Below are positions 1,695 to 32,506 of a DNA stretch of 36,714 nucleotides, piece by piece; positions within the stretch are counted from its first letter, which is position 1, and each line of letters opens with the position of its first letter. A model generated the notes under the pieces. The model had not been told where the DNA came from, did no database searches, and saw nothing but the letters and a program-made list of their open reading frames with translations. The position numbers were made by a program, and so were the translations under genes. The stretch is from an uncultured Bacteroidales bacterium (GTDB lineage: Bacteria; Bacteroidota; Bacteroidia; Bacteroidales; Paludibacteraceae), in NCBI GenBank assembly GCA_949297975.1, contig CASFUX010000092.1, positions 1 to 36,714 of the forward strand. The letters are read 5' to 3'.

Positions 1695-1804
1695 GTGCCA
1701 AGCTTTGATACGAGGTCTCCCAGGCTTTGGGAGAGTGCCTCCCAAGCTTTGGGAGAGTGCCTCCCAAGCTTTGGGAGAGTGTCTCCCAGGCTTTGGAGGT
1801 GAGG
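1695..1804. repeat. 22-bp tandem palindromic array A
   Basis: Five consecutive 22-bp units start at 1695, 1717, 1739, 1761 and 1783. The core unit is CTCCCAAGCTTTGGGAG (7-bp stem, 3-nt loop) followed by a 5-nt spacer AGTGC or AGTGT; the first and last units are degenerate. A second dyad spans each spacer. The array lies in the gap between the SusE/F-like gene and the amylase. It shares unit length and design, but not sequence, with the arrays at 13449, 23493 and 32319. Confidence 0.9.
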
Positions 1805-1859
1805 TGCTCTTTGAAGAGGGCGGGGCGGTCAAGCCCGCGCCCTCCTGGTTCTTTCGTCC

Positions 1860-3035
1860 TTATTCTACCGGGAAGCTGAAGGAGAAGTTGTAGTTTTCGC
1901 CGTCAAACTTCTGGTTGTCGCCATTGGCCCAAGTCTGCGTACCAGCGGCATCCTGCATGATAACCTTGCATTGGAAGTTTTCGGGATAGTCGCCCGTCCA
2001 TTCCCACACGTCGCCGTTCTTCGTCATCACGCGGTCGGATTCGCCCCAGGCCTTTTCGGCGAAGTTGCCGGTGAAGATAATATCGTTGCCTTCCACATAC
2101 CCAGCGGTGATGGTCACTTTGAACGTGCCGTTACCGGCGGGCACGGGTGCCACGTTCCACGGCTCTTCTTTCCAAGCCTCCACTACGTCGTTGGCTTGCA
2201 GGCTTACCGGCATATCAAACTGTTTGCTGCATTCATACGCCCAATCCCACGTAGTGCCGTCGGCACTGACGATGTATTTATATTGGAATGCGGCAGGCAC
2301 TTCCTTCGTCAGCGAGTACGTGCCATCGGCCTCGCGGGTCATCAGCACGGCACCCGGTGCCCAGTATTCGGGGTCGCCATCCACGCCCCAGTTACCGGCG
2401 ATTGACACAAATGCCGTTTCGGGAGTCGTGGCGGGCACGGTCACCTTGAACGTGGCGGTACCGGCTTCGTTGCGTTCCACGCAGGGTGCGGACTTCCACG
2501 CCTTCACGTCGAAGTAGGTTACGGTATTTTCCACGAAAGTGGTCAGTTTCACTTCGCCGCCATTTTCGCTGTTGTCTATCACGCAGCCTTCGCCGGACAC
2601 GATGAGCACGTTCGTTTCCAAGGGCGCACCCGTTTCTTCATCCACGGTGTTCAAGCCCCACTGGGTGTTCCAGCTCACTTCGCCGGTTTGCGTCTTGGCG
2701 ATGACCTTCACCAGCATGTCGGCAGCGAAAGTCAACGTCACCTGGTACCAGTCTTCCGTATCGGCCACCGGGGTGAAGTCCGTGCCCGAGGGGTCCCAGG
2801 TCAGTTCTTCCGTGCCGTTTTGTCCTACGGCTACAATGCCGTTGCAAGTGCCATCGGGCACATGAACCACCAGCGTCACCTTGCCTGCGCCAGGTTCTAC
2901 CACCTGGGGAATTTCAAGGGGTTCGCCCCCTTCGGGCGGCACCACTATCGGGGCGGGTTCGGGTTCTTTACATCCTACGAATGCGACCGATACGGCCAAT
3001 GCCATACATGACAGCAGATAACTTAACTTTTTCAT
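1860..3035 (-). CDS. SusE/SusF-like starch-binding outer membrane lipoprotein
   Basis: 391 residues. The signal peptide ends in a lipobox (VAFVGC, acylated Cys22) followed by a Pro/Glu-rich linker, typical of Bacteroidota surface lipoproteins. The mature part is three beta-sandwich-like segments of about 100 residues (roughly 50-175, 190-295, 300-391). The middle one resembles CBM20-type starch-binding modules (AGNWG, then YWAPGAVLM, then FQYKYIV). There are many Trp residues and no catalytic motif. The expected role is to hold starch at the cell surface next to SusCD. It starts 43 bp after susD, in the same direction. Only one such gene is present where the B. thetaiotaomicron locus has both susE and susF. 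The family call rests on context plus module type. Confidence 0.8.
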   Translation of the reverse strand: MKKLSYLLSCMALAVSVAFVGCKEPEPAPIVVPPEGGEPLEIPQVVEPGAGKVTLVVHVPDGTCNGIVAVGQNGTEELTWDPSGTDFTPVADTEDWYQVTLTFAADMLVKVIAKTQTGEVSWNTQWGLNTVDEETGAPLETNVLIVSGEGCVIDNSENGGEVKLTTFVENTVTYFDVKAWKSAPCVERNEAGTATFKVTVPATTPETAFVSIAGNWGVDGDPEYWAPGAVLMTREADGTYSLTKEVPAAFQYKYIVSADGTTWDWAYECSKQFDMPVSLQANDVVEAWKEEPWNVAPVPAGNGTFKVTITAGYVEGNDIIFTGNFAEKAWGESDRVMTKNGDVWEWTGDYPENFQCKVIMQDAAGTQTWANGDNQKFDGENYNFSFSFPVE

Positions 3036-3078
3036 ACTTCTGATAATTTAATTGGTTAATGATTGTCTTTATTCGTTT

Positions 3079-4743
3079 TTAATTGGTGTATCCTTCGTTC
3101 TGCGTCCACAGTCCGCCGGAGGTTTCAAGCATCTTGCGCGGGATGGGGAACCAGTCGAAATGCTTGTCGACTACCGGCTTGAAGTCCCACGTGCCCTGCG
3201 AGAACCGGTCGTAGCGGATGAGGTCGCGACGGCGCACACCTTCCCAGGCAAACTCGCGCCCGCGTTCGTCCAGCAGTTCGTCCAAGTCCAGCGTGGTGTA
3301 AGGCTCTACCCCGGCGCGGGTACGTATCTTTTGAAAATCGGAATCGGCCAGGATATCGCTGATATTCGCATTGGTCGCCCCGCGCAAGGCCGCTTCGGCC
3401 TTCATGTACAGCACGTCGGCATAGCGGAACAGCACGAAGTCGTTTTCGCAGTACTTGTTGATGGACGAGTTCTTTTCCACTTCGTATTTCAGCAGGCGTG
3501 CGCCGTCGTTGGGGGTGGCGTTGTCCAGCGATGTCACCACCGAGGTGATGCAGGCGGGCAGGTTTTCCTTGTCCTCCATGACCAGCTGGTTGCCTGCGGC
3601 ATCGTACACCGGTCCGAGGAACCATCCCCACTGCCGGGTGTCTTTCGTACCCTGGATGCTGTCGCACGGCCCCCGGCGGTCCACGCCGTATTCATACAAG
3701 TCGATGAACGACTTCGGGGCGCAGAACCCGTTCCACGGCTTCTCTATCAGCCCCCAAGCCTGCTGGTGGGCATAGTTGAGCGTAAGCAGAGTGATGCGCA
3801 GCTTGTTCATGAACGAACCTGCCACTTCGCGGAAGTTGAAATTGGGGTTGCCGTTTTCCACGATGACGAAGATGTTCTCGTTGCTGCCCTCGTTCTGCAC
3901 CTTGAAGTTGGTGAAAAAGTCGTCTTCTATCTGGTACACGCCCGAGTCGATAATCTTGTCGCAGGCTTCCACGCACTTGGTGTAGAAATCGGCCGAAGTG
4001 GCGATGCCCTCGATGCCGCAATTGGCCGGGGTCACGCCAAACGACTCGGCGTTGAGGTAGAGCCGAGCCAGCAGGGCGTAGGCCATGCCCTGGGTAGCCC
4101 GCCCGTAATTCACCGCCTTGTTTGGCACATCGGCCTGGGGCAGCAAGGGGGCGTTTTCCTCCAGTGTGGTCACCAGTTTGTTCCACACTTCCCACGTTTC
4201 GCTTTGCGGCACGTTGTCCGAGGCATAATCTTCCATGTAGGGGATGCGCCCGAAGCAGTCGAACAGCGTGTAATAATAATAGCTGCGCACCACCTTCAGT
4301 TCGGCCACGTAACGGTTGTACACCTCTTCACCCACGGCATCCCGGTAGGGGGCTATCTGCCCCATGATTTTGTTGCACAACACGGCACCCGCGCTGCTGT
4401 ATTGCCACATGTTTTCAAATCCTTTGCCATTGGCATCCCACGACTGGGTGTTGAAGGAATTCCAATACCCGTCGTCATTCCAGTCACCGCCCGGGTTGCG
4501 GATGGGGCACACGCATTCATCCGAACTCAGGGTGCTGAGGCCCCAATAGCCCCAGTGGTCGTGCAGCCAGGTGATTTCGGCGTAGGCCTGCCCTACGATT
4601 TTGGCCATGTTCTCCTCGCTGCTGCTCAATATCTCTTCAGCCGTGGGCTTGCCGTAGGGGTTTTCATCCAGCATGTTTTCGCAGGACGACAACACACCGC
4701 CAGCCAGGCAAGCCATACCTATTATATATATTGTCTTTTTCAT
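3079..4743 (-). CDS. susD: SusD/RagB-family nutrient-binding lipoprotein
   Basis: 554 residues, normal for the family. The lipobox is GGVLSSC (Cys21), followed by ENMLDENPYGKPT, the usual SusD N-terminus. The helical TPR-like scaffold shows in segments such as YNRYVAELKVVRSYYYYTLF and MAYALLARLYLNAESFGV. The C-terminal region has the family pattern VLFRYADVLYMKAEAALRG, then LLDERGREFAWEGVRRRDLIRY and WFPIPRKMLE. SusD caps the SusC transporter at the outer membrane and binds the polysaccharide. The gene follows susC, but across an unusually long 238-bp gap filled with repeats. Starch as substrate is inferred from the neighbouring GH97 and GH13 genes. Confidence 0.96.
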   Translation of the reverse strand: MKKTIYIIGMACLAGGVLSSCENMLDENPYGKPTAEEILSSSEENMAKIVGQAYAEITWLHDHWGYWGLSTLSSDECVCPIRNPGGDWNDDGYWNSFNTQSWDANGKGFENMWQYSSAGAVLCNKIMGQIAPYRDAVGEEVYNRYVAELKVVRSYYYYTLFDCFGRIPYMEDYASDNVPQSETWEVWNKLVTTLEENAPLLPQADVPNKAVNYGRATQGMAYALLARLYLNAESFGVTPANCGIEGIATSADFYTKCVEACDKIIDSGVYQIEDDFFTNFKVQNEGSNENIFVIVENGNPNFNFREVAGSFMNKLRITLLTLNYAHQQAWGLIEKPWNGFCAPKSFIDLYEYGVDRRGPCDSIQGTKDTRQWGWFLGPVYDAAGNQLVMEDKENLPACITSVVTSLDNATPNDGARLLKYEVEKNSSINKYCENDFVLFRYADVLYMKAEAALRGATNANISDILADSDFQKIRTRAGVEPYTTLDLDELLDERGREFAWEGVRRRDLIRYDRFSQGTWDFKPVVDKHFDWFPIPRKMLETSGGLWTQNEGYTN

Positions 4744-4759
4744 CTTCGTATGTTTTATG

Positions 4760-4818
4760 TTCCAGATTTCAAATTTCTAATTTCAGATTCCAGATTTCAA
4801 ATTTCAGATTCCAAATTG
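4760..4818. repeat. Short direct repeats of CCAGATTTCAAATTT words
   Basis: Low-complexity AT-rich stretch just upstream of the susD start. The word CCAGATTTCAAATTTC recurs with variants (TTTCAGATTCCA). It is one of three repeat types crowded into the susC-susD gap. Confidence 0.75.
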
Positions 4819-4861
4819 GCACGTGGGTAACGCGGATTGAACCGATGCGGGCATACTCACC

Positions 4862-4906
4862 CGTAGGGCGTTGCCCTACGCTGAACGCTGCAAGGCCGTT
4901 GGCCTT
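4862..4906. repeat. Two-hairpin 45-bp module, copy 2
   Basis: CGTAGGGCgttGCCCTACG (4862-4880) and AAGGCCgttGGCCTT (4892-4906), again with starts 30 bp apart, as in the copy at 1640. The stems are conserved; the loop of the first hairpin and the linker between the two differ slightly. Confidence 0.85.
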
Positions 4907-4925
4907 GGACGTGCCGCCCGTTCGC

Positions 4926-4982
4926 CTTTCCCCTTTCTACTTTTTCCTTTCTACTTTTACCTTCCTACTTTTCCCTTTCTCC
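4926..4982. repeat. Pyrimidine tract of CTTTCTACTTTT words
   Basis: Strand-asymmetric C/T tract made of tandem words such as CCTTTCTACTTTT and CCTTCCTACTTTT, ending at the stop codon of susC. The transcript of the minus-strand operon would be purine-rich here. A similar purine tract on the plus strand lies at 36341-36394. Confidence 0.75.
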
Positions 4983-7948
4983 TAATTAAACGTCACGTTG
5001 ATACCGATGAGGAAGTTGCGCACGAATGGGTAGAACCCGGTGGCATCAATGCCCGATTCCCACACGCTCGATGTATTGATTTCGGGGTCGATGCCCGAGT
5101 AACCCGTGATGGAGAAGAGGTTTTCGCCCGTAGCATACACGCGGAACGACTGCACGAACTTGTTGGGCTTCACCGGCAGGGTGTAACCGATGGTGAGGTT
5201 GTCCAGCTTGATGTACGAACCATCTTCCAGGTAGTAGTCCGAGAATACGCCCTGACGTTTTACGCCCGTACCGTTGGCCATGGCTTCCACTTCCTTCATG
5301 AACACGTTCGTACCCGCGCTGGTGCCGCTGGGAGCATAGGCCCACCGCTTCACGTTGAGCACGTCGTTGCCCACCACGCCGCGGAAGAAGAGGCTGAAGT
5401 CCCAGTTTTTATAGCGGAACGTATTGTTCCAGCCATAGGTAAACAACGGTTGCGCATGGCCGATGACTTGCATTTTGTCGCGCCCGTATTCATCCTTTTC
5501 ATACACCAGGTTGCCGCCGGTGGTCACTTGCCCCGTCCACTTGTAGCCGTAGAACGTGCCTACAGGCTGGCCTTCCTCGATGCGTTGCGTGTTCACATTC
5601 ATCAGGCCGTTTTCACCCACGCCGCCGGACAGCATGGAGGAATAGTTCAGCCCCAGTTCCGGGTCGGACAGCTTGGTGATGATGTTCTTGTTGAAGGCTA
5701 TGGTGAGGGTCGATGTCCAGTCAAAATGCTTGCGCTGCACGGGCACGCCGGTGAGGGCTATCTCAAGCCCCTGGCTCTTGATGGCACCCGCATTGGCCAG
5801 CAGCTTGTTGAACTGGTAGGGCGGCGTAGGCACGTCGTATTCCCACAACAAGTCCTTGGTGTGGCGCAAGTAGGCATCGATGCTACCCGACAGGCGATTA
5901 TCGAGGAAGGCGAAATCTACCCCCACGTTATACTCGAACTTGCGTTCCCAGCGCAGGTCGGGGTTGGCATTCTGGTTGACCATGTAGGTGGTCACCCACT
6001 GCCCGTTGTACCAGAACGCACCGCCGTTGGTGAGCAGTTCCACCGACTTCAGGTCGCTGCCGAGGTTGTTGCCCGTTATCCCAAAGCCCGCACGCAACTT
6101 GAGGTCGTTCACCCAGTCGGCATTGGCCATGAAGTCCTCGCCGCTGATGCGCCAGCCCGCGCTCACCGCCGGGAACCACCCCCACTTGTGGTTGGCCCCG
6201 AAACGGGACGAACCCTCGCGGCGGATGGAAGCCGAGAGCAGGTACTTCTCCGCATAATTGTAGTTGACACGGGCGAAGCCTGACACCAGCACATTGTCGT
6301 TGCGGTAGGAACTCATGGTCATCTTCGACTTGTCGGCCAAGCCGTTTTCCATCATGTAATATTTATTGTCATCCACCGCGAATCCACCGTTCTTCATCTC
6401 GCTGCCGTCGTAGAAGAACTTCTGATACGAGAAGCCCGCTACCGCCGTGAGGGCATGTGCCCCCCATTGCCCGGCATAGTCCAAAGTGGCTTCGTACAAC
6501 TGGTTCAGGCTGCGGTCGGTCTTGCGGTCGGCCATGCCGGCATCGCCCAGACTGGTGTCATACAGCAGCGAATTATACCAGTAGCTGTAGTTGTCGCCCT
6601 CTTCCAGGGCCGCGAAGCCAGACACTTTCAATCCCGGCACAGGCTTGATGTCCACCGTGGCACGCACCGACCCACGGAAGTAATTACCCTCTTGGTAGGA
6701 TTCCTTTTGGTTCAAGGAAGCCACCGGGTTGCTCTGTCCCGACCCGTTGGGGATGAAGTAGCCGGACACCGCGTTGTCCGCATCATAAATGGGATACGTG
6801 GGGTTGAGCGTGGCCGCCTGCTTGAAGTCGCCACAGAAATAATTGTTCTTATAGTGCATGTACGAGAAGTCGTATTGCAAGTTAACCCAGCCGTCGAGCA
6901 GCTTCTGGTCGGCGGCAAACTTGGCGATGATTTCATCGCGGTCGGAGTTCTTGGCAATGCCCTGCGCGTCCTTGAAGGCCACCGAGCCACGGTAGCTGAA
7001 GTTCTTCGTCGCCCCCGTAATGGCCACGTTGTGGTTGTGCGTGATGGGAGCGGTGCGCAGCATCTCGGCCATCCAGTCGGTGCTTGCCCCCATGTCCACC
7101 GGCTTCACCTTGCCGCCCGAAAGGGCTTCCAGGTTGCGGTACTCGTCGATAGTAGCCATGCCCGTGTTGCCGCTCGCCTGTGACAGGGATACATAGCCCG
7201 AATATTCCACCTGGGCTTTGCCACATTCCACGTTGCCTGCCCCTTCGCCGCGCTTGGTGGTGATGATGATGACCCCGTTCGTGCCGCGCGTGCCATAGAT
7301 GGCCGCCGCCGAACCGTCCTTCAACACGTCCATGGAGGCAATTTCCGTGGGGGCAATGTTGTCGATGTTGTTCACCGGGATACCGTCCACGATATAGAGC
7401 GGCGACGTACCCGCGCCTTTGTCCAAGGTGGAGAACCCACGGATTTGAATGTTGTAGCCCGTGTTGGTGGGGTCGCCGCCCGAGCGGGAGATGTTCAGCC
7501 CTGCCACCTTGCCTTGCAGCAGGCCGATGGGGTTGGTCTTCACCCCGGGATTGAAGTTTTCTGCCTTGACGGAGGCCACCGAACCGGTCACTTCCTTCTT
7601 CTTCTGCGAGCCGTAGCCGATGGCAACGACTTCCTGCAACGCCACCGCGTCTTCTTGCAGTTCCACCACGATGGACGCGCGGCCGTCCACCTCCACGGAC
7701 TGCGTGGTGTAGCCGATGTAAGACACTTCCAAGGTGGCATCTGGTTGAACGGAGAGGACAAACGTGCCGTCCACGTCGGTAATAGTACCGTTGCTGGTGC
7801 CTTGTTCCATAATGTTGGCACCGATAATCGGCTCGCCGCTGGCCTGGTCTTTCACCATGCCCGTCACGCTGGTTGATTGCGCGGAGGCCATGAACGTCCA
7901 CAGGCAGCATACGGCAGCCCATACGAACTTAACAGGTAAGTTTCTCAT
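4982..7948 (-). CDS. susC: SusC/RagA-family TonB-dependent outer membrane transporter
   Basis: 988 residues from the ATG at 7948; a TTG further upstream (7978) gives a poorer N-terminus. The signal peptide ends in MASAQ. A carboxypeptidase-regulatory-like domain follows (VTGMVKDQASGEPIIGANI, DVDGTFVLSV). Next comes the SusC signature region (VVAIGYGSQKKKEVTGSV), a plug domain (IQIRGFSTLDKG, VDGIPVNNI, MDVLKDGSAAAIYGTRG, NGVIIITTKRG) and a 22-strand-type barrel to the C-terminus. It imports maltodextrins with SusD, powered by TonB-ExbBD. It lies 228 bp downstream of susB and upstream of susD in the same direction. The terminal residues FLIGINVTFN are the usual barrel end. Confidence 0.97.
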   Translation of the reverse strand: MRNLPVKFVWAAVCCLWTFMASAQSTSVTGMVKDQASGEPIIGANIMEQGTSNGTITDVDGTFVLSVQPDATLEVSYIGYTTQSVEVDGRASIVVELQEDAVALQEVVAIGYGSQKKKEVTGSVASVKAENFNPGVKTNPIGLLQGKVAGLNISRSGGDPTNTGYNIQIRGFSTLDKGAGTSPLYIVDGIPVNNIDNIAPTEIASMDVLKDGSAAAIYGTRGTNGVIIITTKRGEGAGNVECGKAQVEYSGYVSLSQASGNTGMATIDEYRNLEALSGGKVKPVDMGASTDWMAEMLRTAPITHNHNVAITGATKNFSYRGSVAFKDAQGIAKNSDRDEIIAKFAADQKLLDGWVNLQYDFSYMHYKNNYFCGDFKQAATLNPTYPIYDADNAVSGYFIPNGSGQSNPVASLNQKESYQEGNYFRGSVRATVDIKPVPGLKVSGFAALEEGDNYSYWYNSLLYDTSLGDAGMADRKTDRSLNQLYEATLDYAGQWGAHALTAVAGFSYQKFFYDGSEMKNGGFAVDDNKYYMMENGLADKSKMTMSSYRNDNVLVSGFARVNYNYAEKYLLSASIRREGSSRFGANHKWGWFPAVSAGWRISGEDFMANADWVNDLKLRAGFGITGNNLGSDLKSVELLTNGGAFWYNGQWVTTYMVNQNANPDLRWERKFEYNVGVDFAFLDNRLSGSIDAYLRHTKDLLWEYDVPTPPYQFNKLLANAGAIKSQGLEIALTGVPVQRKHFDWTSTLTIAFNKNIITKLSDPELGLNYSSMLSGGVGENGLMNVNTQRIEEGQPVGTFYGYKWTGQVTTGGNLVYEKDEYGRDKMQVIGHAQPLFTYGWNNTFRYKNWDFSLFFRGVVGNDVLNVKRWAYAPSGTSAGTNVFMKEVEAMANGTGVKRQGVFSDYYLEDGSYIKLDNLTIGYTLPVKPNKFVQSFRVYATGENLFSITGYSGIDPEINTSSVWESGIDATGFYPFVRNFLIGINVTFN

Positions 7949-8009
7949 GCGTTTGCGTTTTTTTAATTGGTTAGACAATAATTGTGTTAACTAAAGGATA
8001 AGCCCATGT

Positions 8010-8025
8010 GTCTTTCCGGAAAGAC
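8010..8025. promoter_or_regulatory. Perfect 16-bp palindrome in the susB-susC gap, possible operator
   Basis: GTCTTTCCGGAAAGAC is a perfect dyad 62-77 bp upstream of the susC ATG, in an AT-rich gap of 228 bp. No TAnnTTTG box was found in the gap. A regulator binding site is inference; an mRNA hairpin with 6-bp stem is the alternative. Upstream, ACTAATCGTTAAC is repeated directly at 8144 and 8165. Confidence 0.45.
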
Positions 8026-8176: not shown

Positions 8177-10717
<2,541 letters not shown>

Positions 10718-10798
10718 GTCATTTCGACCGTAGGGAGAAATCCCCTTCTACAACGCTTCCAAAGCCACTGTGAGATTTCTCGCTGCGCTCGAAATGAC
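10718..10798. repeat. Interspersed GTCATTTCGA inverted repeat
   Basis: GTCATTTCGACCGTAGGGAG at 10718 pairs imperfectly with CTCGCTGCGCTCGAAATGAC ending at 10798, with a spacer carrying ATC/GAT remnants. This word pair (GTCATTTCGA...GAGAAATC...GATTTCTC...TCGAAATGAC) is a common dispersed repeat in Bacteroidota genomes as I recall it. Confidence 0.75.
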
Positions 10799-10901
10799 GA
10801 GGACGGCATGAAAATAGTACTTTTTACACAGCCTCACAGGCACAGGGATACGATTTTTTCCCTTTTCCCGCCAATCATGCCCCGGTACGGAAATTTATCC
10901 T

Positions 10902-13448: not shown

Positions 13449-13586
13449 CCCTTTAGGCAAAAGGGGCGTACCCCTTTAGGCAAAAGGGTCACACCCCTTT
13501 AGGCAAAAGGTCAACACCCCTTTAAGCAAAAGGTCGGCATCCCTTTGGGCAAAAGGTCAATACTCTTTTGGGCAAGTGGACCGTAC
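13449..13586. repeat. 23-bp tandem palindromic array B
   Basis: Six units start at 13449, 13472, 13495, 13518, 13541 and 13564, each exactly 23 bp, with a seventh decayed unit from 13587. The core is CCCTTTAGGCAAAAGGG (stem CCCTTT/AAAGGG) plus a variable 6-nt spacer. Units drift from left to right (TTTAGG, TTTAAG, TTTGGG, TTTTGGG). The spacer is far too short for a CRISPR array. Confidence 0.92.
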
Positions 13587-13931: not shown

Positions 13932-14028
13932 TAATTTGTCATTAAGTTTATAATAGATATAGAGATTGTGAGTGATGTACAAGGACCCAGGAGGAATGCA
14001 ACTGGAAGCATTCCTCCGTGTCCTTTTA
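13932..14028 (+). ncRNA. Candidate leader RNA or small RNA with strong terminator-like hairpin
   Basis: Between the promoter box and the BspA start, the arm at 13981-13999 (AAGGACCCAGGAGGAATGC) pairs with 14008-14025 (GCATTCCTCCGTGTCCTT) around an 8-nt loop, with a small internal mismatch. It is followed by TTTT (14024-14027). The hairpin locks up an AGGAGG motif. It could end a short RNA of about 95 nt or act as an attenuator for the downstream gene. The start is inferred from the promoter box. No Rfam family was recognised. Confidence 0.4.
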
Positions 14029-14154
14029 CTGAGAACGGAAAAGATGCAATATAAGCTGACGTCTTTTTTCAATTCTTCTTGTGATTTAAAATTTAAAGAA
14101 ATATCCGCATATATACCTGAAGATGAATCAACTAACCCCAAAAAACATAAAGAT

Positions 14155-16980
14155 ATGAAAAAACAACTGTTACTCATGACAGTCCTTTGCTTGGCTACAG
14201 CGCAAGCGTGGGGACAAACGATTGTGGCCTCCGGCACATGCGGAGCGCAGGGCAGCAACCTTACCTGGACGCTGACCGATGATGGCACATTTACCATTAA
14301 CGGTGTGGGAGCGATGGAGGATTATACTACTACTTCCAGACCATGGTATGATTATCGAGCAAACATTCGAAATGCGATAATAGCGGATGGAGTGGCAAAC
14401 ATTGGAAATTACACTTTCTACCAGTGTTCAGACTTGATTTCCGTGACCATTCCTAATAGCGTGACCAATATAGGGAATTATGCCTTCAGAAGTTGCAGCA
14501 GTCTTATTTCGGTAACTATCCCAAATAGTGTGACAAATATCGGAAATAATGCTTTCCAAGACTGTAGCGAATTGTCTTCAATAGCTATTCCTGGCAGTAT
14601 AACTAACATTGGGAATTATACTTTCCAAAATTGTAACGGATTATCTTCGGTCGCCATTTCGGAGGGGGTAAGCAGCATTGGGAATTCCGCTTTTATCAAT
14701 TGTAGCAGTTTGACTTCAGTGGCTATTCCCAACAGTGTGATCAGTATAGGCAGTAATGTTTTTGATGGAACTGCCATATACAATGATAGTATCAATTGGA
14801 AAGAAGGTGTATTATATATTGACCAGTGCCTAATAGAGGCAGATAAGACTATCTTAAGCGGTGCTTATGACATTTTACCTGGCACCAAAGTAATTGCAGA
14901 CTATGCCTTTCAAAACTGTGATAGCTTGACTTCAGTGAGTATTCCAACTGGTATTACAATCATCGGGAATTATACTTTTAGTAATTGCGATGGATTGACC
15001 TCTGCACACCTTCCTGATGGTGTAATAAGTATAGGAAGATATGCTTTCAGTGCTTGCCGTAGTTTGGATTCGGTAAATATTCCCAATGGTGTGACAAGCA
15101 TAGGAGATAATGCTTTCTATAATTGTGATAGCTTGGCCCTGATAAATCTGCCTAATGGAATAGCTAACATTGGAAACAATGCTTTTGGGGGGACTGCCTT
15201 TTACGAAGATGATAGCAACTGGACTGGAAGTGTGCTGTATATCAACTATTATCTGATAGATGCAAATACTACTACATTGACTGGCGCATACAATATCCTA
15301 CCTAACACAAAGTTGATAGCAGGAAATGCTTTCCAATCTTGCAGGAATTTGACTTCAGTAACTATTCCCAATAGCGTAAACAGTATTGGTAATTATGCTT
15401 TTTCCAGCTGTAGCAGCTTGACTTCGGTAACTATACCGAATAGCGTTTTAAGCATTGGGGATTACGCTTTCTTTGGTTGTTCTGCATTGATGTCTGTTGC
15501 TATCCCTAACAGCGTAACTAGCATTGGAAGAAATACCTTCGCTAATTGTGACGGTCTGATTTCAGTAACCATCCCTGAAAGCGTGACCAACATCGGAAGT
15601 TATGCCTTCAGCAATTGTGATGGCTTGACTTCAGTCATCATACACGAAGGCATAACAAACATTGAAAATTACGTTTTTAGTGGTTGTCGCAAATTATCAT
15701 CTATTACTATCCCCTATGGTATAGCAAGCATAGGAAATAATGTCTTCTATAATTGTGAAAGTTTAGCTTCCATCACTATTCCTAACAGCGTAACAAGTAT
15801 TGGAAACAATGTTTTCCAAAATTGCAGCAAATTAAACACCATCACCTTTCCTAAAAGTGTAACAAGCATAGGAGAATATGTTTTTACAGGTTGCACCAGT
15901 TTGACTTCAATACGGATTGGTGATGAATTAGAAACTATGGGGGCACTTTGTAGAAACAATAATTATTTGACAAATCTAGAAGAGTTTATATGTAAAAGTG
16001 CTAATGTACAATTTCCTACTAACTTGTTACAAGGTTGTCAAAAACTGCATCGTGCAGAAGGACCAGCAAACATGCTACACTATGAAAATAACGAAGATTT
16101 AGAAACGTACACAACCCAATTCGACTCGATAGCTATTACAGGCGGTTTGCTTCAAGAGACAGGTTTTGCTGTGTTACGACAAAGCAAAACATCTTTGAAA
16201 ACACTTTCACTTGAACATATTAGCAACACGGAACTACCTGCGCAAGCTTTATCGGGGTGCTTTAGACTAAAAACGCTTACTCTGCCCGCCTCTCTTGAAC
16301 AAACCGGCTACGGGGCATTCAAGGAATGTACTGCTCTTACGTCCATCACACTACCGACCAGCCTTACGGAAGTGGGCGACCGAGCATTTGAGGACTGCTA
16401 CCTGTTGAATAACATCACGTGGAATGAGAACCTGCAACGCATCGGCGACCGTGCTTTCTACGGTTGCAACAGCCTGCCGCAAGTAACCATCCCCGAGGGC
16501 GTAGAAGACATCGGCGTGGCTGCCTTTATGGGTTGTACTTATATGGAAAACGTGGAACTTCCCGCCTCCCTTCGCACAGTGGGAGACAATGCGTTTGCCA
16601 ACAACACGCGAACCAGGAGTATGACGGTATATGCCGCCGTGCCGCCCCTCGTGTCAGCACACACGTTCTACCAGTTGGATGCTTCAGCGCCGGTGTACGT
16701 GCCTGCTGAAAGCCTGTCCAGCTACCGGGCAGCCGCCTATTGGCAAGACCTCAACCTGCAACCTTTCGGGGGCACTACGGGCATGGGAGTCTTGTCCCTC
16801 TCCGAAGCCATCACGGTAGTGAACGGCGAAGTGAATCTCAACCTCCCCGGTACATTTGAAGTTCAGGTGTACGACCTGCAAGGTCATCACGTGCTGCGTA
16901 CCACGGAAAATCTCTTCGCATTGCCGCAGGGTGTGTACATTGTCCAAGTAGGGAACGAGGCAGTGAAGGTGGTGATATAA
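14155..16980 (+). CDS. BspA-type leucine-rich repeat surface protein with T9SS sorting tail
   Basis: 941 residues from the ATG at 14155, which opens a signal peptide (MKKQLLLMTVLCLATAQAWG). From about residue 75 to 830 there are over twenty 23-residue LRR_5 repeats of the form LTSVTIPNSVTSIGNYAF plus xxCxx. Two related non-repeat inserts (NWKEGVLYIDQCLIEADKT and NWTGSVLYINYYLIDANTT) suggest block duplication. The last 70 residues (VYDLQGHHVLRTTENL, LPQGVYIVQVGNEAVKVVI) fit a type A C-terminal sorting domain of the Por/T9SS system. That predicts export and anchoring at the cell surface. BspA proteins are linked to adhesion. The repeat core is much more AT-rich than the C-terminal part and the neighbours, suggesting recombination or acquisition. 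Confidence 0.92.
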   Translation: MKKQLLLMTVLCLATAQAWGQTIVASGTCGAQGSNLTWTLTDDGTFTINGVGAMEDYTTTSRPWYDYRANIRNAIIADGVANIGNYTFYQCSDLISVTIPNSVTNIGNYAFRSCSSLISVTIPNSVTNIGNNAFQDCSELSSIAIPGSITNIGNYTFQNCNGLSSVAISEGVSSIGNSAFINCSSLTSVAIPNSVISIGSNVFDGTAIYNDSINWKEGVLYIDQCLIEADKTILSGAYDILPGTKVIADYAFQNCDSLTSVSIPTGITIIGNYTFSNCDGLTSAHLPDGVISIGRYAFSACRSLDSVNIPNGVTSIGDNAFYNCDSLALINLPNGIANIGNNAFGGTAFYEDDSNWTGSVLYINYYLIDANTTTLTGAYNILPNTKLIAGNAFQSCRNLTSVTIPNSVNSIGNYAFSSCSSLTSVTIPNSVLSIGDYAFFGCSALMSVAIPNSVTSIGRNTFANCDGLISVTIPESVTNIGSYAFSNCDGLTSVIIHEGITNIENYVFSGCRKLSSITIPYGIASIGNNVFYNCESLASITIPNSVTSIGNNVFQNCSKLNTITFPKSVTSIGEYVFTGCTSLTSIRIGDELETMGALCRNNNYLTNLEEFICKSANVQFPTNLLQGCQKLHRAEGPANMLHYENNEDLETYTTQFDSIAITGGLLQETGFAVLRQSKTSLKTLSLEHISNTELPAQALSGCFRLKTLTLPASLEQTGYGAFKECTALTSITLPTSLTEVGDRAFEDCYLLNNITWNENLQRIGDRAFYGCNSLPQVTIPEGVEDIGVAAFMGCTYMENVELPASLRTVGDNAFANNTRTRSMTVYAAVPPLVSAHTFYQLDASAPVYVPAESLSSYRAAAYWQDLNLQPFGGTTGMGVLSLSEAITVVNGEVNLNLPGTFEVQVYDLQGHHVLRTTENLFALPQGVYIVQVGNEAVKVVI

Positions 16981-23208: not shown

Positions 23209-23288
23209 CGATTTATTATGTTTTATAAATATGAACAGCCTGTTGGCAGATTGAGGGTGTATCTAAGTAAGAACGAACACGGATTGAG

Positions 23289-23375
23289 CGGATTGAACGG
23301 ATTATCACGGATGAGGATACCGTTGAGAGTCCATGGCATCCCGGGTAAAATATCCGTGTAATTCTGTTTAATCCG
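23289..23375. repeat. Inverted repeat of CGGATTGAACGGATT words
   Basis: CGGATTGAACGGATTATCAC plus GGA (23289-23311) pairs imperfectly with TCCGTGTAATTCTGTTTAAT plus CCG (23353-23375), 18 of 23 positions. A further CGGATTGAG word precedes it. It lies in the divergent MATE-glyS region. Confidence 0.75.
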
Positions 23376-23492
23376 CATTATCAGAGTTCTAAAATCCCAT
23401 TTTGATACCCCCTCAAACGTTTGGTAAAGAAGTCGCAATCCCATAGGAACGTCTTGCATTTCCCCCGGCTGCTTCGTGCCTTCATGCCAGGA

Positions 23493-23592
23493 AAGTTATC
23501 GTCCCACGAACGTGGCACACCCGTCCCACGAACGCGAGACACCCGTCCCACGAACGTGGTACACCTGTGCCACGTTCGTGGGACGATAACTT
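23493..23592. repeat. 22-bp tandem palindromic array C with perfect 27-bp inverted ends
   Basis: Four 22-bp units start at 23501, 23523, 23545 and 23567. The first three begin GTCCCACGAACG (dyad CCACGaaCGTGG in units 1 and 3) with CACACC-type spacers; the fourth is the same unit inverted (CCACGTTCGTGGGACG). The outer 27 bp, 23493-23519 and 23566-23592, are perfect reverse complements, so the whole array can form one long hairpin. It sits between the divergent MATE and glyS genes. Confidence 0.93.
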
Positions 23593-25456: not shown

Positions 25457-25478
25457 GAACAACATTATAATAATTCAA

Positions 25479-25820: not shown

Positions 25821-25834
25821 ATAACATTTAACAC

Positions 25835-25861: not shown

Positions 25862-25862
25862 T

Positions 25863-27152
25863 CTATTCCGCGTACTTAACTATCGTGTCCATCGGCACGC
25901 TGTCAGCCAAGGCAGGGTGCAACGCCGCATGGTGGGCGTTAATTTCCTCCAGCAACTGCGCCTTCACCGTATTGAAGCTGTCGCGCAGTTCCTCATGCAG
26001 CGGGATATCGGGCGGGGCTTCCATGGTGAGAGGATTGATGTACGAGCCGTTCTTCTGCACGCGGAAGTCAAGGTGCGGCCCGGTGGAAAGGCCCGTGGAG
26101 CCGACGTAGGCGATGACCTGCCCCTGTTGCACACGCGTACCCTTGTTGATGCCCTTGGCGTAGCGGCTCAGGTGCATGTACGTGGTGGTGTACACGGAGT
26201 TGTGCTTCACCTTGAGGTAATACCCCCCGCCGCGCGGCTGGTAGCCTTTGGCCACTACCAGGCCGTCGCCGATGCTCTTCACGGGCGTGCCGATGGGAGC
26301 GGCGTAGTCCACCCCGTGGTGGGCGCGGTAACGCTTGAGCACAGGGTGGTAACGCGAATTGGTGAAGCGCGATGTAATGCGGAAGAAATCAAGCGGTGCT
26401 TTGAGGAACGCCCGGCGCATACTGTTGCCGTCGGGGTCGAAGAAGATACGCGCACTGTCCTGCACGAAAGGAATGGCCACGTAGTCGCGCCCCATGTGCG
26501 TGAACACCGCCCCCTCGATGGAGCGCACACCCAGTGGCACCGTGTCGTCCACGTAAGCCTTTTCGTACAGCACCTTGTAACCGTCACCTGGCTGCACACC
26601 GAAGAAGTCCACCTGCCAAGCATAGATGTCAGACAGCATGAGAGCAATAATCGGGTCGGTGCCGCTGCCCACGATAGCATCCCACAGGCTGGTTTCCACC
26701 GTGCCCTCGGCATAAAGCCGCCGCAGGGTTTCGGGCTTCGTGAAGGTGTGCACCGTCACGCTGTCGCCGGGGAAACCCAGCACCACGAAATCCGTCTTCG
26801 AACGGCCGAACACCACGTGAGCCACCCTCGGCACGCTGTCGCGCGTGGTGAAAGCGCAATACTCCATGCCCGGCATCAGGTAGCGGGGCGGCAGCAACTC
26901 CGCCGATGCCCGCACGATGCGGTCGGCTTCCGATGGCGTGAACCCCAGTTCATCGTATATCTTGGAAAACGTGTCGCCTCGCCGCACCCGGTAATCGCTG
27001 CGGTCCAGCGAGTCCACGCACAAGCCGAAGCAGTACGCATGTTCCGGTTCGGGGCATTCCCCCACTCCGTCATTCGTCGGATTGCCTACCGTTCTCTTGC
27101 CACACGAAGCCAACAGCACACAGGCAACCCCTATCACAAAAAATTTCCTCAT
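25863..27152 (-). CDS. M23-family peptidase lipoprotein (LytM/OapA-like)
   Basis: 429 residues from the ATG at 27152; lipobox VLLASC (Cys17). A LysM/OapA-like segment is at about 52-85 (YRVRRGDTFSKIYDELGF), a middle domain runs to about 240, and the LytM domain spans about 258-375. Zinc motif 1 is His278-x-x-x-Asp282 (HHGVDYAAPIGTPV). Motif 2 reads GPHLDFRV, that is His360-Leu-Asp362 where LytM enzymes have HxH. The rest of the active-site frame (YMHLSRYAKGINKGTRVQQG, IAYVGSTGLSTG) is intact. The likely role is a peptidoglycan DD-endopeptidase or regulator of cell separation at the envelope. The Asp at the third metal-ligand place could still bind zinc. It is divergent from pyrG. Confidence 0.92.
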   Translation of the reverse strand: MRKFFVIGVACVLLASCGKRTVGNPTNDGVGECPEPEHAYCFGLCVDSLDRSDYRVRRGDTFSKIYDELGFTPSEADRIVRASAELLPPRYLMPGMEYCAFTTRDSVPRVAHVVFGRSKTDFVVLGFPGDSVTVHTFTKPETLRRLYAEGTVETSLWDAIVGSGTDPIIALMLSDIYAWQVDFFGVQPGDGYKVLYEKAYVDDTVPLGVRSIEGAVFTHMGRDYVAIPFVQDSARIFFDPDGNSMRRAFLKAPLDFFRITSRFTNSRYHPVLKRYRAHHGVDYAAPIGTPVKSIGDGLVVAKGYQPRGGGYYLKVKHNSVYTTTYMHLSRYAKGINKGTRVQQGQVIAYVGSTGLSTGPHLDFRVQKNGSYINPLTMEAPPDIPLHEELRDSFNTVKAQLLEEINAHHAALHPALADSVPMDTIVKYAE

Positions 27153-27176
27153 ATTTCCCTGCAAAAACATTTCCTG

Positions 27177-27184
27177 CAAAATTA
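27177..27184 (-). promoter_or_regulatory. TAnnTTTG box for the M23 gene
   Basis: Minus strand TAATTTTG, 24 bp upstream of the ATG at 27152. TCCTGCAAA-like words recur around it. No clear -33 element. Confidence 0.5.
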
Positions 27185-27225
27185 AGATAATTCCTGCGAA
27201 CAGACAGCATACGCGATACAATTAA

Positions 27226-28939
<1,714 letters not shown>

Positions 28940-28941
<2 letters not shown>

Positions 28942-29120
28942 CTACAAGTTACAAGCTACGAGCTACAAGTAAGTGGAGAGTAGCTCACGCTGCGTGGCAA
29001 CATGATTTATCCATCAAGTAAAAAGCAATCATTACATATATTATATATAATAACTTCCGGCTCAAAATCTGCGGCTCGTGGCTTTGCCCAATTGTAGCTC
29101 GTAGCTTGTAGCTTGTAGCT
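28940..29120. repeat. 29-bp inverted repeat flanking the pyrG-yidC gap
   Basis: The arm at 28940-28968 (AGCTACAAGTTACAAGCTAC plus GAGCTACAA) and the arm at 29092-29120 are reverse complements at 28 of 29 positions, enclosing 123 bp of AT-rich DNA. The left arm begins inside the pyrG TAG stop; the right arm ends 9 bp before the yidC ATG. The arms are built of AGCTACAAG-like words. Confidence 0.9.
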
Positions 29121-29129
29121 GAACGACAC

Positions 29130-31055
29130 ATGGACAATAATACAACCATCGGTTTCTTACTTATCGCGCTCATCATCATCGGTTTTGCATTGATAAACAA
29201 GCCATCGGAAGAGGAGATTGCCCGTCAACGCCATTACAACGACTCCATCGCCCTGGTGCAGCAACAGCGCATGGCGGCGGAAGCGGCGCGGCAGGAAGCC
29301 AACGCCGCCTTGCAAGCCCCCGCGCAAGGGCTGGACTCGGCGTCCCTGCAAGCCAAACTGGCCGACGCGTTCGGCGCCTTCAGCCCGGCGGCCACCGGCA
29401 CGGACACCTGCTATGTGCTGGAGAATGAAGTGCTGCGGGTGGCATTGAGTGCCCAGGGCGGGCGCATCTATTCCGCCGAACTGAAGAACTTCCGCACGCA
29501 CGACTCGTTGCCCCTGTTCCTCTTCGAAGGCAAGGAAAGCATGATGAACTTCACCCTCATCACCAGCAACAACCGCATCGTGAACACGAAGGACATGTTC
29601 TTCACCCCCGTATCGGCCCCGCAGACCGATGCCGACGGCAACCAGACCTTGGCCCTGCGCCTCGGAACCTCCGTGCCGGATGCCTACATCGACTTCGTGT
29701 ACACCCTGCCGAAGGACGACTACATGCTGCACTTCGACATCGTGCCGGTCAACATCAGCCGGGTGATACCCGCCGGTACCAACTCGCTGGAGATGCAATG
29801 GGCATCCAAACTACGCCAGCAGGAAAAAGGACGCAAGTTCGAGGAACGTTACGCCGCACTCAACTACCGGTTTGCCTCCGAAAAGGACGTGGAAATGCTC
29901 AATGCCGCCAAGAACGACTCGCGCCGGCTGAACAACCGCATCAAGTGGATAGCTTTCAAGGACCAGTTCTTCAGCAGCATCCTGATAGCGGATGACGAAA
30001 TCGTGAGTGCCAACCTCACCAGCAGCATCGAGCCGGAACACAGCGGCTACCTGAAAGACTACTCGGCCAACATGATCATTCCCTTCGACGCGCTCGACGG
30101 CACGCCGACGGGATTCCGCTTCTTCCTGGGACCGAACCACCACCAGACCCTCGCCTCCTACGACAAGGGCATCGACAAGGAAGACAAGCTCTACCTGCGC
30201 AAAATCATCCCGCTGGGCTGGTTCGGTTTCGTGAACCGCTACTTCATCATCCCGATGTTCAACTTCTTCCGCAGCTTCATCGGCAACATGGGGCTTATCA
30301 TCCTGCTGATGACCCTGGTGGTGAAAATCATCATCTTCCCCATGACGTACAAGTCGTACATGTCAAGCGCGAAGATGCGCGTGCTGAAGCCGGAGATTGA
30401 CGAAATCAACGCCCGCATCCCCGCCGACAAGCCCGCCGAACGGCAACAGGCCATGATGAAACTGTACAACAAGGTGGGCGTAAGCCCCATGAGCGGCTGC
30501 CTGCCCCTGCTGTTGCAGATGCCTATCCTGATAGCCATGTTCGGCTTCTTCCCCACGGCCATCGAGTTGCGGCAGGAAAGTTTCCTGTGGGCAAAGGACC
30601 TCTCCACCTACGATGCCATCATCAGCTGGAAGGCGCACATTCCCCTCATCTCGTCCATATTCGACAACCACATCAGCCTCTTCTGCGTGCTGATGACGGT
30701 GACCACGTTCCTCAGCAACAAGCTGAACACGGCCACGCAGGCGGCAGCCGGGGGCGACCAGATGAAGATGATGCAGTGGATGATGAACCTCATGCCCATC
30801 ATGTTCTTCTTCATATTCAACAACTACGCTTCGGGGCTGACGTATTATTACTTCCTCTCCACCCTCATCTCGACCATCCAGATGTACGCCATCCGCGCCA
30901 CGGTGGACGAAGAAAAACTGCTTGCCCAGCTCCGCGCCAAAGGCAACGCCAGGGACAAGAACCCGAAGAAAAAAAGCACGTTCATGGAACGCCTCGAAAA
31001 GGCGCAACGCGAACAGCTGAAGGCCATGCAGCAACAACAGAAGAACAGGAGATAA
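29130..31055 (+). CDS. yidC: Membrane protein insertase YidC
   Basis: 641 residues, the long Bacteroidota type. An N-terminal membrane anchor (TIGFLLIALIIIGFALI) is followed by a periplasmic beta-sandwich domain (about 85-370) and the Oxa1/YidC core. The core has NRYFIIPMFNFFRSFIGNMG, the cytoplasmic loop MSSAKMRVLKPEIDEINARI, then VGVSPMSGCLPLLLQMPILI and the final helices (LMPIMFFFIFNNYASGLTYY). The tail is basic (KNPKKKSTFMERLEKAQREQ). It inserts inner membrane proteins with or without SecYEG. The pyrG-yidC order is one I remember as common in Bacteroidales. Only a weak ribosome site is visible, because the upstream DNA is repeat. Confidence 0.97.
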   Translation: MDNNTTIGFLLIALIIIGFALINKPSEEEIARQRHYNDSIALVQQQRMAAEAARQEANAALQAPAQGLDSASLQAKLADAFGAFSPAATGTDTCYVLENEVLRVALSAQGGRIYSAELKNFRTHDSLPLFLFEGKESMMNFTLITSNNRIVNTKDMFFTPVSAPQTDADGNQTLALRLGTSVPDAYIDFVYTLPKDDYMLHFDIVPVNISRVIPAGTNSLEMQWASKLRQQEKGRKFEERYAALNYRFASEKDVEMLNAAKNDSRRLNNRIKWIAFKDQFFSSILIADDEIVSANLTSSIEPEHSGYLKDYSANMIIPFDALDGTPTGFRFFLGPNHHQTLASYDKGIDKEDKLYLRKIIPLGWFGFVNRYFIIPMFNFFRSFIGNMGLIILLMTLVVKIIIFPMTYKSYMSSAKMRVLKPEIDEINARIPADKPAERQQAMMKLYNKVGVSPMSGCLPLLLQMPILIAMFGFFPTAIELRQESFLWAKDLSTYDAIISWKAHIPLISSIFDNHISLFCVLMTVTTFLSNKLNTATQAAAGGDQMKMMQWMMNLMPIMFFFIFNNYASGLTYYYFLSTLISTIQMYAIRATVDEEKLLAQLRAKGNARDKNPKKKSTFMERLEKAQREQLKAMQQQQKNRR

Positions 31056-31067
31056 GCCACCCCCAAC

Positions 31068-31079
31068 CCCCTAAAGGGG
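31068..31079 (+). repeat. CCCCTAAAGGGG element after the yidC stop
   Basis: Starts 12 bp after the stop, preceded by ACCCCCAAC and followed by CTTTT, so it might act as a weak terminator. Same family as 13269. Confidence 0.8.
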
Positions 31080-31100
31080 CTTTTGCGGGAGGCAACAAAA

Positions 31101-31146
31101 ACAAGCGCAAATACACGCGAAAATCACGGCGTATATTTGCGCTTGT
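31101..31146. repeat. Hairpin of ACAAGCGCAAATA arms
   Basis: ACAAGCGCAAATAC at 31101-31114 pairs with GTATATTTGCGCTTGT at 31131-31146 (one 2-nt slip). It follows yidC and directly abuts the next inverted repeat, so two nested structures stand side by side in the yidC-gldB gap. Confidence 0.75.
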
Positions 31147-31240
31147 CTTGTAGAGACGTCACTCCTGTGGTGTCTCTAACGCGCCTCTTTTCAGAGATGC
31201 CACCTTTTCAGAGACGCCACAGGAGTGACGTCTCTACAAG
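31147..31240. repeat. GTAGAGACG inverted repeat, 31-bp arms
   Basis: 31147-31177 and 31210-31240 are reverse complements at 30 of 31 positions, with a 32-bp spacer. Each arm also contains an internal dyad (AGAGACGtCAC...GTGGtGTCTCT). Related single copies lie at 13291-13326 and 36477-36558. Confidence 0.92.
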
Positions 31241-31276
31241 GCCACATGCGAGAGATAATCTGAAATTATATAATAT

Positions 31277-32308
31277 ATGTTATCTATGTCATCCCTCTCC
31301 ATCAAAAAGAACCTGTTGCCCTTGTGCGTTACCCTTGCCCTGCTTGCCGCAGGCGGTTGCAAGCAAAAGAGCCGCTTTGCCATCGACACCGACCGATACC
31401 CCCATGTGGCATTCCAACGGCTCGACCGCGACATGCTTTCGCTCGATACCGCCCGCATGGCATCCGGTGTGCGGACGCTCTACCACGCCTATCCCGACTT
31501 CTTCCCCGCCTACGTGGCCAACGTGCTGGGCATGAACGCGGCGGACACGGCACAGGTGGCCGATGCCATCCGCGCGTTCCTGACCGACAGCACGTTTGCT
31601 CCCTTCAACCGGGACGTGCTGCAACATTACGCTTCGGTGAATGACTTGGAGAAGACGCTCACCACCGCCTACGCCTACCTGCACCACTATTTCCCGAATA
31701 TCGCCCTACCGAAGCCCTGCCTGTTCGTCTCCGGCTTCAACCTGTCCATCCTCATGACCGACAGCGTGACGGGCATGGGCACGGACATGTACCTGGGCAC
31801 CGACTACCCGGCCTATGCCAACCTCACCTACCACTACCTGGCCGCCAACATGAACCGCGCCAACCTGGTGCCGGACATGGTGTCGGCCCTGCTCTTCCGT
31901 ACCTTCCGCATGGACAGCGACCGGGGCCGCCTGATTGACCACATGCTGTACCGGGGCAAGGTGATGTACCTGCTCTCGGTGTGCCTGCCCGACGTACCCC
32001 ACGAAGTGCTCATCGGCTACACGCCGGAGCAACTGGACTGGTGCCGCCAATACGAACGGGCCATGTGGGCGGCGGTCATCGACCAGAAGCACCTGTTTTC
32101 GTCCGACGTATTCCTCATCCGCAAATACGTAAACGATGCCCCTTTCACCGCCCCCCTCTCGCAGGACGCACCCGGACGTGCCGGTACTTGGCTCGGCTGG
32201 CAAATCGTGCGCAGCTACATGGAACAGAACCCCGCCGTCACCCTGCCTGAACTCATGCGCACAAACGACTACGACCTCCTGCTGGAACAGTCGGGGTACA
32301 GGCCGTGA
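31277..32308 (+). CDS. gldB: GldB-type gliding motility/T9SS-associated lipoprotein
   Basis: 343 residues from ATG 31277 (ATG 31286 is equally possible). Lipobox LLAAGGC (Cys28). The body matches the GldB family: FQRLDRDMLSLDTA, PDFFPAYVANVLGM, YLHHYFPNIALPKPCLFVSG, GTDMYLGTDYPAY, VLIGYTPEQLDWCRQYERAM and the C-terminal GRAGTWLGWQIVRSYM. GldB is an essential gliding lipoprotein in Flavobacterium; homologues persist in non-gliding Bacteroidales, where the link to T9SS or to metal/protein handling is unclear. A T9SS is implied here by the sorting tail of the BspA protein. It has no close partner gene; it is convergent with rodA. Confidence 0.88.
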   Translation: MLSMSSLSIKKNLLPLCVTLALLAAGGCKQKSRFAIDTDRYPHVAFQRLDRDMLSLDTARMASGVRTLYHAYPDFFPAYVANVLGMNAADTAQVADAIRAFLTDSTFAPFNRDVLQHYASVNDLEKTLTTAYAYLHHYFPNIALPKPCLFVSGFNLSILMTDSVTGMGTDMYLGTDYPAYANLTYHYLAANMNRANLVPDMVSALLFRTFRMDSDRGRLIDHMLYRGKVMYLLSVCLPDVPHEVLIGYTPEQLDWCRQYERAMWAAVIDQKHLFSSDVFLIRKYVNDAPFTAPLSQDAPGRAGTWLGWQIVRSYMEQNPAVTLPELMRTNDYDLLLEQSGYRP

Positions 32309-32318
32309 AAGAAAGACG

Positions 32319-32506
32319 GATGTTTGTCCAATCGTGAGCAGATGTTTTCCCAATCGTGAGCACAAATTCTACTGCCCACAGTTATGGGTTGTACGACCCA
32401 CAGTTATGAGTTATATAACCCACAGTTATGGGTTATACAACCCACAGCTGTGGGTTATAAAAATTGTGCTCATGATTGGGAAAAGTTGTGCTAATAAATG
32501 AGAAAA
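32319..32506. repeat. Composite 22-bp array D: two X, four palindromic Y, two inverted X units
   Basis: X units at 32319-32340 and 32341-32362 (20 of 22 identical; both contain CCAATCGTGAGCA). After 12 bp come Y units at 32375, 32397, 32419 and 32441, each 22 bp, starting CCCACAGTTATGGG or the perfect palindrome CCCACAGCTGTGGG. Two X-type units follow in reverse orientation at 32463-32484 (close copy) and 32485-32506 (more diverged). Every block is 22 bp. The TGGGTTATATAACCCA dyads between Y units offer an alternative fold. The array fills the gap between the convergent gldB and rodA genes. Confidence 0.94.

Follow-up and report, generated by a model that had tools for sequence, protein, structure and literature searches.

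The window analysed here is a 36.7-kb contig of genome G000, an uncultured Bacteroidales bacterium (3.05 Mb in 270 contigs, 87.6% complete). Between its called open reading frames (ORFs) lie four short tandem arrays with a unit of 22 or 23 bp. A sequence-only reading had described these arrays, and all four were found again at the places and with the periods given there. With Tandem Repeats Finder (TRF), arrays 1, 2 and 3 were detected at 1698-1796 (period 22), 13449-13575 (period 23) and 23500-23581 (period 22). Array 4 was returned as three stretches, 32319-32362, 32375-32459 and 32459-32507, all with period 22. When the four arrays were compared by BLASTN at E<=1, only self-matches were obtained, in agreement with the claim that they share no sequence. 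Their location in gene-free gaps was also borne out, with one possible overlap at array 3, where a called GTG start at 23567 would overlap the final 26 bp of the element. The genes were called with a home-made ORF scorer, which missed at least one leucine-rich repeat (LRR) gene. The features are listed in Table 1.

Table 1 Positions of the four arrays and their parts within the window.
Feature	Position	Strand	Remark
Array 1, 4.5 units x 22 bp (CCAAGCTTTGGGAGAGTGCCTC)	1698..1796	.	Variable-copy family, ~5 dispersed places in G000
Array 2, 5.5-6 units x 23 bp (CCCTTTAGGCAAAAGGTCAACAC)	13449..13586	.	Variable-copy family, many G002 copies
Array 3, left arm AAAGTTATCGT	23492..23502	+	
Array 3, 80-bp inner region of four units with cores GAAC x3, then GTTC	23503..23582	.	
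Array 3, right arm ACGATAACTT, repeating the left arm in inverted orientation	23583..23592	-	
Array 4, outer units on the left, GATGTTTKYCCAATCGTGAGCA twice in direct orientation, facing the centre	32319..32362	+	
Array 4, left arm CAAATTCTACTG	32363..32374	+	
Array 4, 80-bp inner region of four units (CCCACAGTTATGGGTTRTAYRA or a variant of it)	32375..32454	.	
Array 4, inverted right-hand part (arm and two outer units)	32455..32506	-	

The period distribution of the genome has a peak at 22-23 bp. TRF returned 201 non-overlapping arrays in 644,941 b of G000, 59 of them at period 22, and an order-3 Markov copy of the same 644,941 b, used as the control, gave one array at period 22. The period survey covered a total of 1.17 Mb from G000 and G002, the latter being the sister genome and the closest relative compared; both are array-rich and only 88-89% complete. 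Among the intergenic arrays of this sample with at least 2.9 copies, 51 had period 22, 16 had period 23, and 11 had period 21, mostly heptamer repeats. No such array was found at periods 17-20 or 24-27. At a 75% identity cut, which splits some families, 26 sequence clusters lie under the peak at period 22 and 11 at period 23. The period-22 clusters include five of the array 3 type, three of array 4 outer units and four of the GGAATTT family, and 25 of the 26 reduce by eye to about a dozen unrelated ones. The period counts, the Markov control and the cluster count indicate that fixed length with free sequence, which had been proposed for the four arrays, holds genome-wide. This fixed spacing with differing letters suggests that something reads the spacing more than the sequence.

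The number of arrays per 100 kb (periods 22, 23, 44 and 46 together) was 12.1 in G000 and 13.7 in G002. In two further genomes it was 6.5 (G001) and 0 (G003, where 119,468 b were sampled), and seven genomes of the family or the order gave 0 to 2.4 in samples of 20-80 kb each. These densities place the trait mainly in part of one genus. Extrapolation to the whole of G000 gives about 370 arrays.

The four arrays had been taken as one design. The period is indeed common to all of them, but they are of two kinds, and only arrays 3 and 4 have a four-unit plan. These two are unrelated in sequence and follow a common layout, in which 22-bp outer units point inward, 80 bp with four dyad units lie between them, and the outer units return inverted. 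Both elements are mirror-symmetric, element 3 matching its own reverse complement at 80% over 100 bp and element 4 at 77% over 156 bp. A dispersed element of about 160 bp at window 23253-23414 adjoins array 3; it has many copies in G002 and is missing at the matching G002 place. At array 4 (window 32308-32532) the gene order breaks, and a gldB-type and a rodA-type gene that are adjacent here are on separate contigs in G002 and G001.

Array 3 is a member of family B, which is found at 23 distinct places in G000, 10 in G002 and at least 31 in G001. In an alignment of 27 copies, the arms AAGTTATCGT and ACGATAACTT flank units of the pattern CAC-nnnn-GTG, and palindromic spacers such as ACACCTGT, ACAGGTGT or ACACGTGT lie between the units. 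Array 4 is a member of family A, which was compared over 36 distinct stretches: the outer units TTTTCCNANTCGTGAGCAGATG, the arm TTYTACTG and the inner units CCCACAGTTATGGGTTRTAYAA are followed by all of these inverted. Of the 21 family A elements with standard arms, 20 have an inner length of 80 bp (36 in the other), a count that requires the standard right arm CAGTARAA and has window array 4 (80 bp) and L016 (five units) outside it. In family B the inner length is 80 bp in 21 of 23 (36 and 102 in the other two), and all three exceptions differ from 80 by whole units. A third family, C (L031, L042, L047, L064 twice, L119 and L205), has four 21-bp units in 7/7 arrays, where at least three units per array were required for detection. 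Its arrays are mostly bounded by ATTCT and AGAAT, with inverted 22-bp outer units where inspected. The outer units of family A hold the 22-bp phase, and their information falls outward from 1.24 to 0.93, 0.75 and 0.32 bits per base (57 half-elements, the two halves of one element being counted apart).

The dyad that had been assigned to each unit is present unevenly, with some stems and the symmetry of whole elements on one side and weak signals in several arrays on the other. For arrays 1-4, the longest stem of the unit consensus against shuffled letters gave P = 0.010, 0.082, 0.086 and 0.044, and the circular dyad gave P = 0.197, 0.476, 0.074 and 0.031. The dyad fraction of the consensus, taken over 163 arrays from the genomes G000, G002 and G001, was 0.571 against 0.490 for shuffled consensuses, and 25% of the arrays exceeded the 95th percentile of the control. 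Nine of these 163 rows are 66/69-bp arrays folded to 22/23 and should be discounted; they are still included in the dyad-fraction, gene-gap placement and compensatory-change counts.

Both flanks were present in the G002 sample for 9 of the 64 array clusters of G000. Five of the nine are kept in G002 (window array 3, L020 with another core type, L035, L054:5161 and L054:9205), one is collapsed (L049, compared with L123), two are absent from the matching place (window array 1 and L054:2463), and the remaining one, L019, was not aligned. Array 3 and its G002 counterpart lie at the same place with four units each, and they differ at 14/16 core and 8/86 other element positions (Fisher P 5e-10, in a test that treats non-independent positions as independent). 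The flanks differ at 8/60 positions on the left and 8/40 on the right, less than the core; therefore, the core of array 3 has changed faster than the flank, in all units. A four-unit array with the GAAC core is also present elsewhere in G002 (C128:519-596), where the order is again three units forward and one inverted, and its flanks show no similarity. L020 of G000 and L110 of G002, at matching places, differ at 16/16 core and 25/86 other positions; the arms have changed too, and the two core types are swapped relative to the usual type of each genome.

Array 4 has a probable counterpart in G001, which lies next to the same rodA-type gene. Both are 80 bp long, and 14/24 core versus 3/56 other positions are changed. 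The spacers are TTGTACGA, TTATATAA and TTATACAA in the window and TCGTACGA, TTATATAA and TTATACAA in G001. Two family A spacers drawn at random are identical with a probability of 0.148; therefore, the matching spacers by themselves speak only modestly for orthology. The end of the same rodA-type gene bears an unrelated 23-bp array in G002. At matching loci, the cores of all units are replaced jointly within a frame that is retained. The constraint on geometry that had been proposed from the four arrays goes further for arrays 3 and 4, with the 80-bp inner length in two unrelated families and core replacement within a kept frame.

The symmetry within the units was examined by pairing counts. 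In family B (26 arrays, 104 units, window array 3 being left out as its second unit deviates from the pattern), the innermost core pairs 8-11 and 9-10 are complementary in 0.62 and 0.75 of the units versus 0.33 and 0.30 expected, and the next positions outward have no excess or a deficit. In family C, the innermost pairs 3-7 and 4-6 reach 0.93 versus 0.54 and 0.79 versus 0.50, with no excess in the outer two pairs. Adjacent bases such as 9-10, and bases such as 4-6 around a single base, cannot pair in a hairpin, and therefore symmetric double-stranded recognition or templating fits better. The family A spacer TYRTAYRA is symmetric in consensus, yet its two sides vary independently (pairing 0.56 versus 0.54 expected and 0.62 versus 0.57, in 72 spacers). 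Symmetry without covariation is expected for protein half-sites and not for base pairing, and it suggests the former. A long hairpin between the two arms was rejected, as the left and right arms of one element resemble each other no more than arms of different elements do (0.616 versus 0.590 +- 0.027, 21 elements). Cores are shared within arrays above shuffled expectation in G000 (0.832 versus 0.543) and in family C (0.778 versus 0.594), and weakly so in G001 (0.561 versus 0.488 +- 0.036).

Copy number is variable in the families of arrays 1 and 2: among the listed copies it ranges from 4.5 to 7.5 units in the former and from 5.5 to 9.3 units in the latter, with 10.4 in L112. The GTACC family is likewise variable, with 4 to 12 units.

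One family serves as the target of a mobile element. An insertion sequence of the IS110 type (PF01548 E 4.5e-9, PF02371 E 9.9e-12) lies in family A arrays at L040, L058, L034, L298 and L209; both of its sides were seen in L034 and L040, and one side in the other three. All five PF02371 copies of G000 (four) and G002 (one) adjoin an array-4-type core, as at an IS110 target site, and the single copy in G001 lies elsewhere. The two junctions in L034 are CCCATAAC and CTGTGGG, placing the junction at CT in the middle of the palindrome (CCCATAA^CTGTGGG). The element is specialised on the array-4-type core (CCCATAACTGTGGG) and occupies L040:3935-5240 and L034:9849-11015, with broken gene frames at both. 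The CTATAG family is about 216 bp long, with CTATAG every 22 bp and sharp ends (e.g. L054:5155-5370), and has at least 16 matches in G000 and 8 in G002. In two G002 copies (L275 and L273), at contig ends, the left end runs into the start of a transposase-like ORF. This 47-aa start matches HTH_Tnp_1 at E 0.029, which does not reach the cut-off, and is 40% identical to an OrfA of G001 that adjoins a full transposase-like frame. The CTATAG family suggests a tie between a transposase-like gene and one 22-bp-phased family at least.

Other repeats were also recorded. Heptamers (periods 7, 14, 21, 28) and octamers (8, 16, 24) form a separate repeat class. Heptamer repeats are a second abundant class in these genomes and occur in the window, with periods 7, 14 and 21, at 4763-4817, 4921-4983, 28940-28969, 29092-29120 and 36343-36390. 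Intergenic heptamers are described as widespread and unexplained in a survey (PMC6344855). The 69-bp period at 15502-15635 was set aside as coding sequence of a BspA-type LRR gene (window 13972-16980, PF13306 E 6.5e-178); the G002 blocks listed include none that matches this stretch. At window 10684-10847 lies a further dispersed repeat without coding capacity, of which G002 has many copies.

Taken as a class, the arrays are several families of dispersed, non-coding intergenic elements in one Bacteroidales genus. They are of the kind of repetitive extragenic palindromes (REPs), bacterial interspersed mosaic elements (BIMEs) and miniature inverted-repeat transposable elements (MITEs), with a strict metric. 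The statement that the arrays are not REP families was too strong, as each sits in a dispersed repeat family; it stands for membership of the type mobilised by REP-associated tyrosine transposases (RAYTs). A single mobile element behind all four arrays was rejected, since they have no cross-similarity and fall into separate families. The arrays are also not clustered regularly interspaced short palindromic repeats (CRISPRs), as had been said, their units being head-to-tail without unique spacers.

The description of the arrays is firm, and the mechanism is our inference. Our preferred reading, to which we would give slightly less than an even chance, is that the arrays are phased double-stranded protein sites within REP/MITE-like elements. 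In the best-resolved families (those of array 3 and array 4, and the third), a conserved palindromic site of 12-18 bp alternates with a free core of fixed length, to give 21-22 bp per unit. Four such units lie between inverted arms, outside which 22-bp units continue in phase with decaying conservation. Most likely, each conserved site would bind a symmetric putative protein, a dimer, on double-stranded DNA. With one site per two helical turns, the proteins would stand side by side on one face and could therefore join into a cooperative complex, which may start at the centre and spread outward. The core could be free in sequence while its length keeps the spacing, and cores may be exchanged or rewritten among copies. 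The binding protein, its cooperative binding and any role, be it in chromosome organisation or in a transposition complex, are putative.

Several results weigh against this reading. The dyad is weak in several arrays when the unit consensus is compared with shuffled letters. In half of the families, with those of arrays 1 and 2 among them, the period is the only feature shown, and the copy number varies. Neither a sharp insertion boundary nor a duplicated target site was found in families A and B. Few independent core types underlie the core pairing excess, and its P values overstate it. Cores of the array 3 family are not uniform within arrays in G002 (0.724 versus 0.714). Compensatory change within arrays is not above shuffles (409 versus 394 +- 10, with 12/33 arrays above their mean), which also leaves the earlier idea of a templated mechanism copying hairpins locally without support.

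The elements could instead be of the MITE type, with the 22-bp units as multiple transposase-binding sites at the ends and the copies moved in trans. The sharp ends of the CTATAG family, its two G002 copies running into a transposase-like ORF and the presence/absence differences between G000 and G002 are in line with such an origin. However, no partner gene was seen for families A, B and C or for arrays 1 and 2, families A and B have inverted arms and yet outer units that fade instead of sharp ends, no target duplication was found, and the end arrays of CTATAG are direct rather than inverted; we consider this explanation unlikely. Neutral minisatellites are judged quite unlikely as an account of the whole class. 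Here, hairpin-prone units would be multiplied by slippage, and local duplication with template switching would yield uniform palindromic units. This explanation is strongest for the variable-copy families, where the copy number varies as it does in the 9-12-unit arrays L032, L035 and L038. Neighbouring outer units resemble each other more within a copy (0.621 versus 0.556 +- 0.011), the inner array of L049 has collapsed in G002, and one clear local tandem duplication is present (L054:2463). A sharp 22-23 bp period in sequences unrelated to each other is not what slippage predicts, and neither is a constant number of four units or the retention of unit-specific spacers while all cores change.

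A role in RNA, as terminators, attenuators or transcript-stability signals, is improbable. Several arrays have stems, 117/120 array clusters of G000 and G002 lie outside called genes, and clusters in tandem gaps are slightly nearer to the upstream gene end (median 100 b) than to the downstream start (162 b). The 120 clusters comprise 61 in tandem, 25 in divergent and 10 in convergent gaps (gap lengths 112, 39 and 30 kb), 21 at contig ends and 3 in called genes. The convergent gaps hold 10/96 placed clusters for 30.0 of 181.7 kb, and with no bias to such gaps a convergent-terminator role was rejected. Nor is there arm pairing or spacer covariation, the core pairing excess falls on bases unable to pair in a hairpin, and RNA families were rejected as no Rfam match reached gathering scores in the window. 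REPs or BIMEs mobilised by RAYT (Y1_Tnp) transposases are hardly credible and were rejected. The arrays are small, palindromic, dispersed intergenic repeats in opposite orientations and are an IS110-type target, as REPs are, but the RAYT profile PF01797 gave 0 hits in G000 and 0 in G002, each 88-89% complete, against 1 in G001 and 5 in G003, which has no arrays in its sample.

Phased protein sites of this spacing are familiar from plasmid iterons and from the MuA and TnsB end sites of about 22 bp, where protein sites are repeated every two helical turns. Those are single-locus systems with one sequence each, whereas hundreds of chromosomal loci and many sequences are involved here. The BrickBuilt MITE of Porphyromonas gingivalis, also of the Bacteroidales, is intergenic, with about 19 dispersed copies of head-to-tail 23-nt units predicted to fold into stem loops, and repeats of 41, 23 and 22 nt had been described earlier in strain W83, as the paper notes (PMC4596501). 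The likeness lies in the intergenic, dispersed, head-to-tail 23-nt units. By its description (PMC4596501), however, BrickBuilt is one family with a leader, a tail, IS5-like terminal repeats and 1 to 22.8 units, and includes neither a mirror-symmetric four-unit plan nor unrelated families sharing a period, both of which are present here. A CGTC group of REPs/BIMEs is reported in Bacteroidetes without a dedicated transposase (PMC3733652). Like these palindromes, the arrays are short, dispersed and in opposite orientations, and family B has CGTC before its palindrome. The CGTC REPs are described with 8-9 bp stems opening with A-T pairs, loops of 4-5 b, mostly head-head dimers, rare clusters and variable spacing (PMC3733652), whereas the arrays here have tandem units at 22 bp, a conserved stem of 3 bp and no fixed loop. 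Family B conserves only CAC/GTG around a free 4-b core and does not fit the CGTC-tagged type. IS621, ISPa11 and ISPpu10 of the IS110 family insert into REP elements (PMC11208160, PMC11187229), much as the IS110-family junction falls in the middle of a repeated palindrome here; the array is the target and not the mobile unit. No paper with this description was found in searches of an open-access library, subscription literature being outside the search.

A more specific possibility, which we regard as unlikely, is a geometry-coded chromosomal element, with conserved palindromic sites and free cores of fixed length in alternation, whose cores are all rewritten at once in a fixed frame that keeps even its unit-specific spacers. 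It could be a recombinase-like arm-core-arm array whose cores have to match one another, or the product of an arms race in which the cores escape RNA-guided IS110-type elements directed at them.

If spacing and symmetry rather than sequence are what is constrained in these arrays, the class will have escaped searches by sequence, and other genomes may hold more of it. The arrays offer a natural test of phased protein-DNA assembly in bacteria and a ready case of concerted core replacement in a fixed frame between sister species. The specialisation of an IS110-family element on a dispersed palindrome is a second setting for such targeting, outside Proteobacteria.

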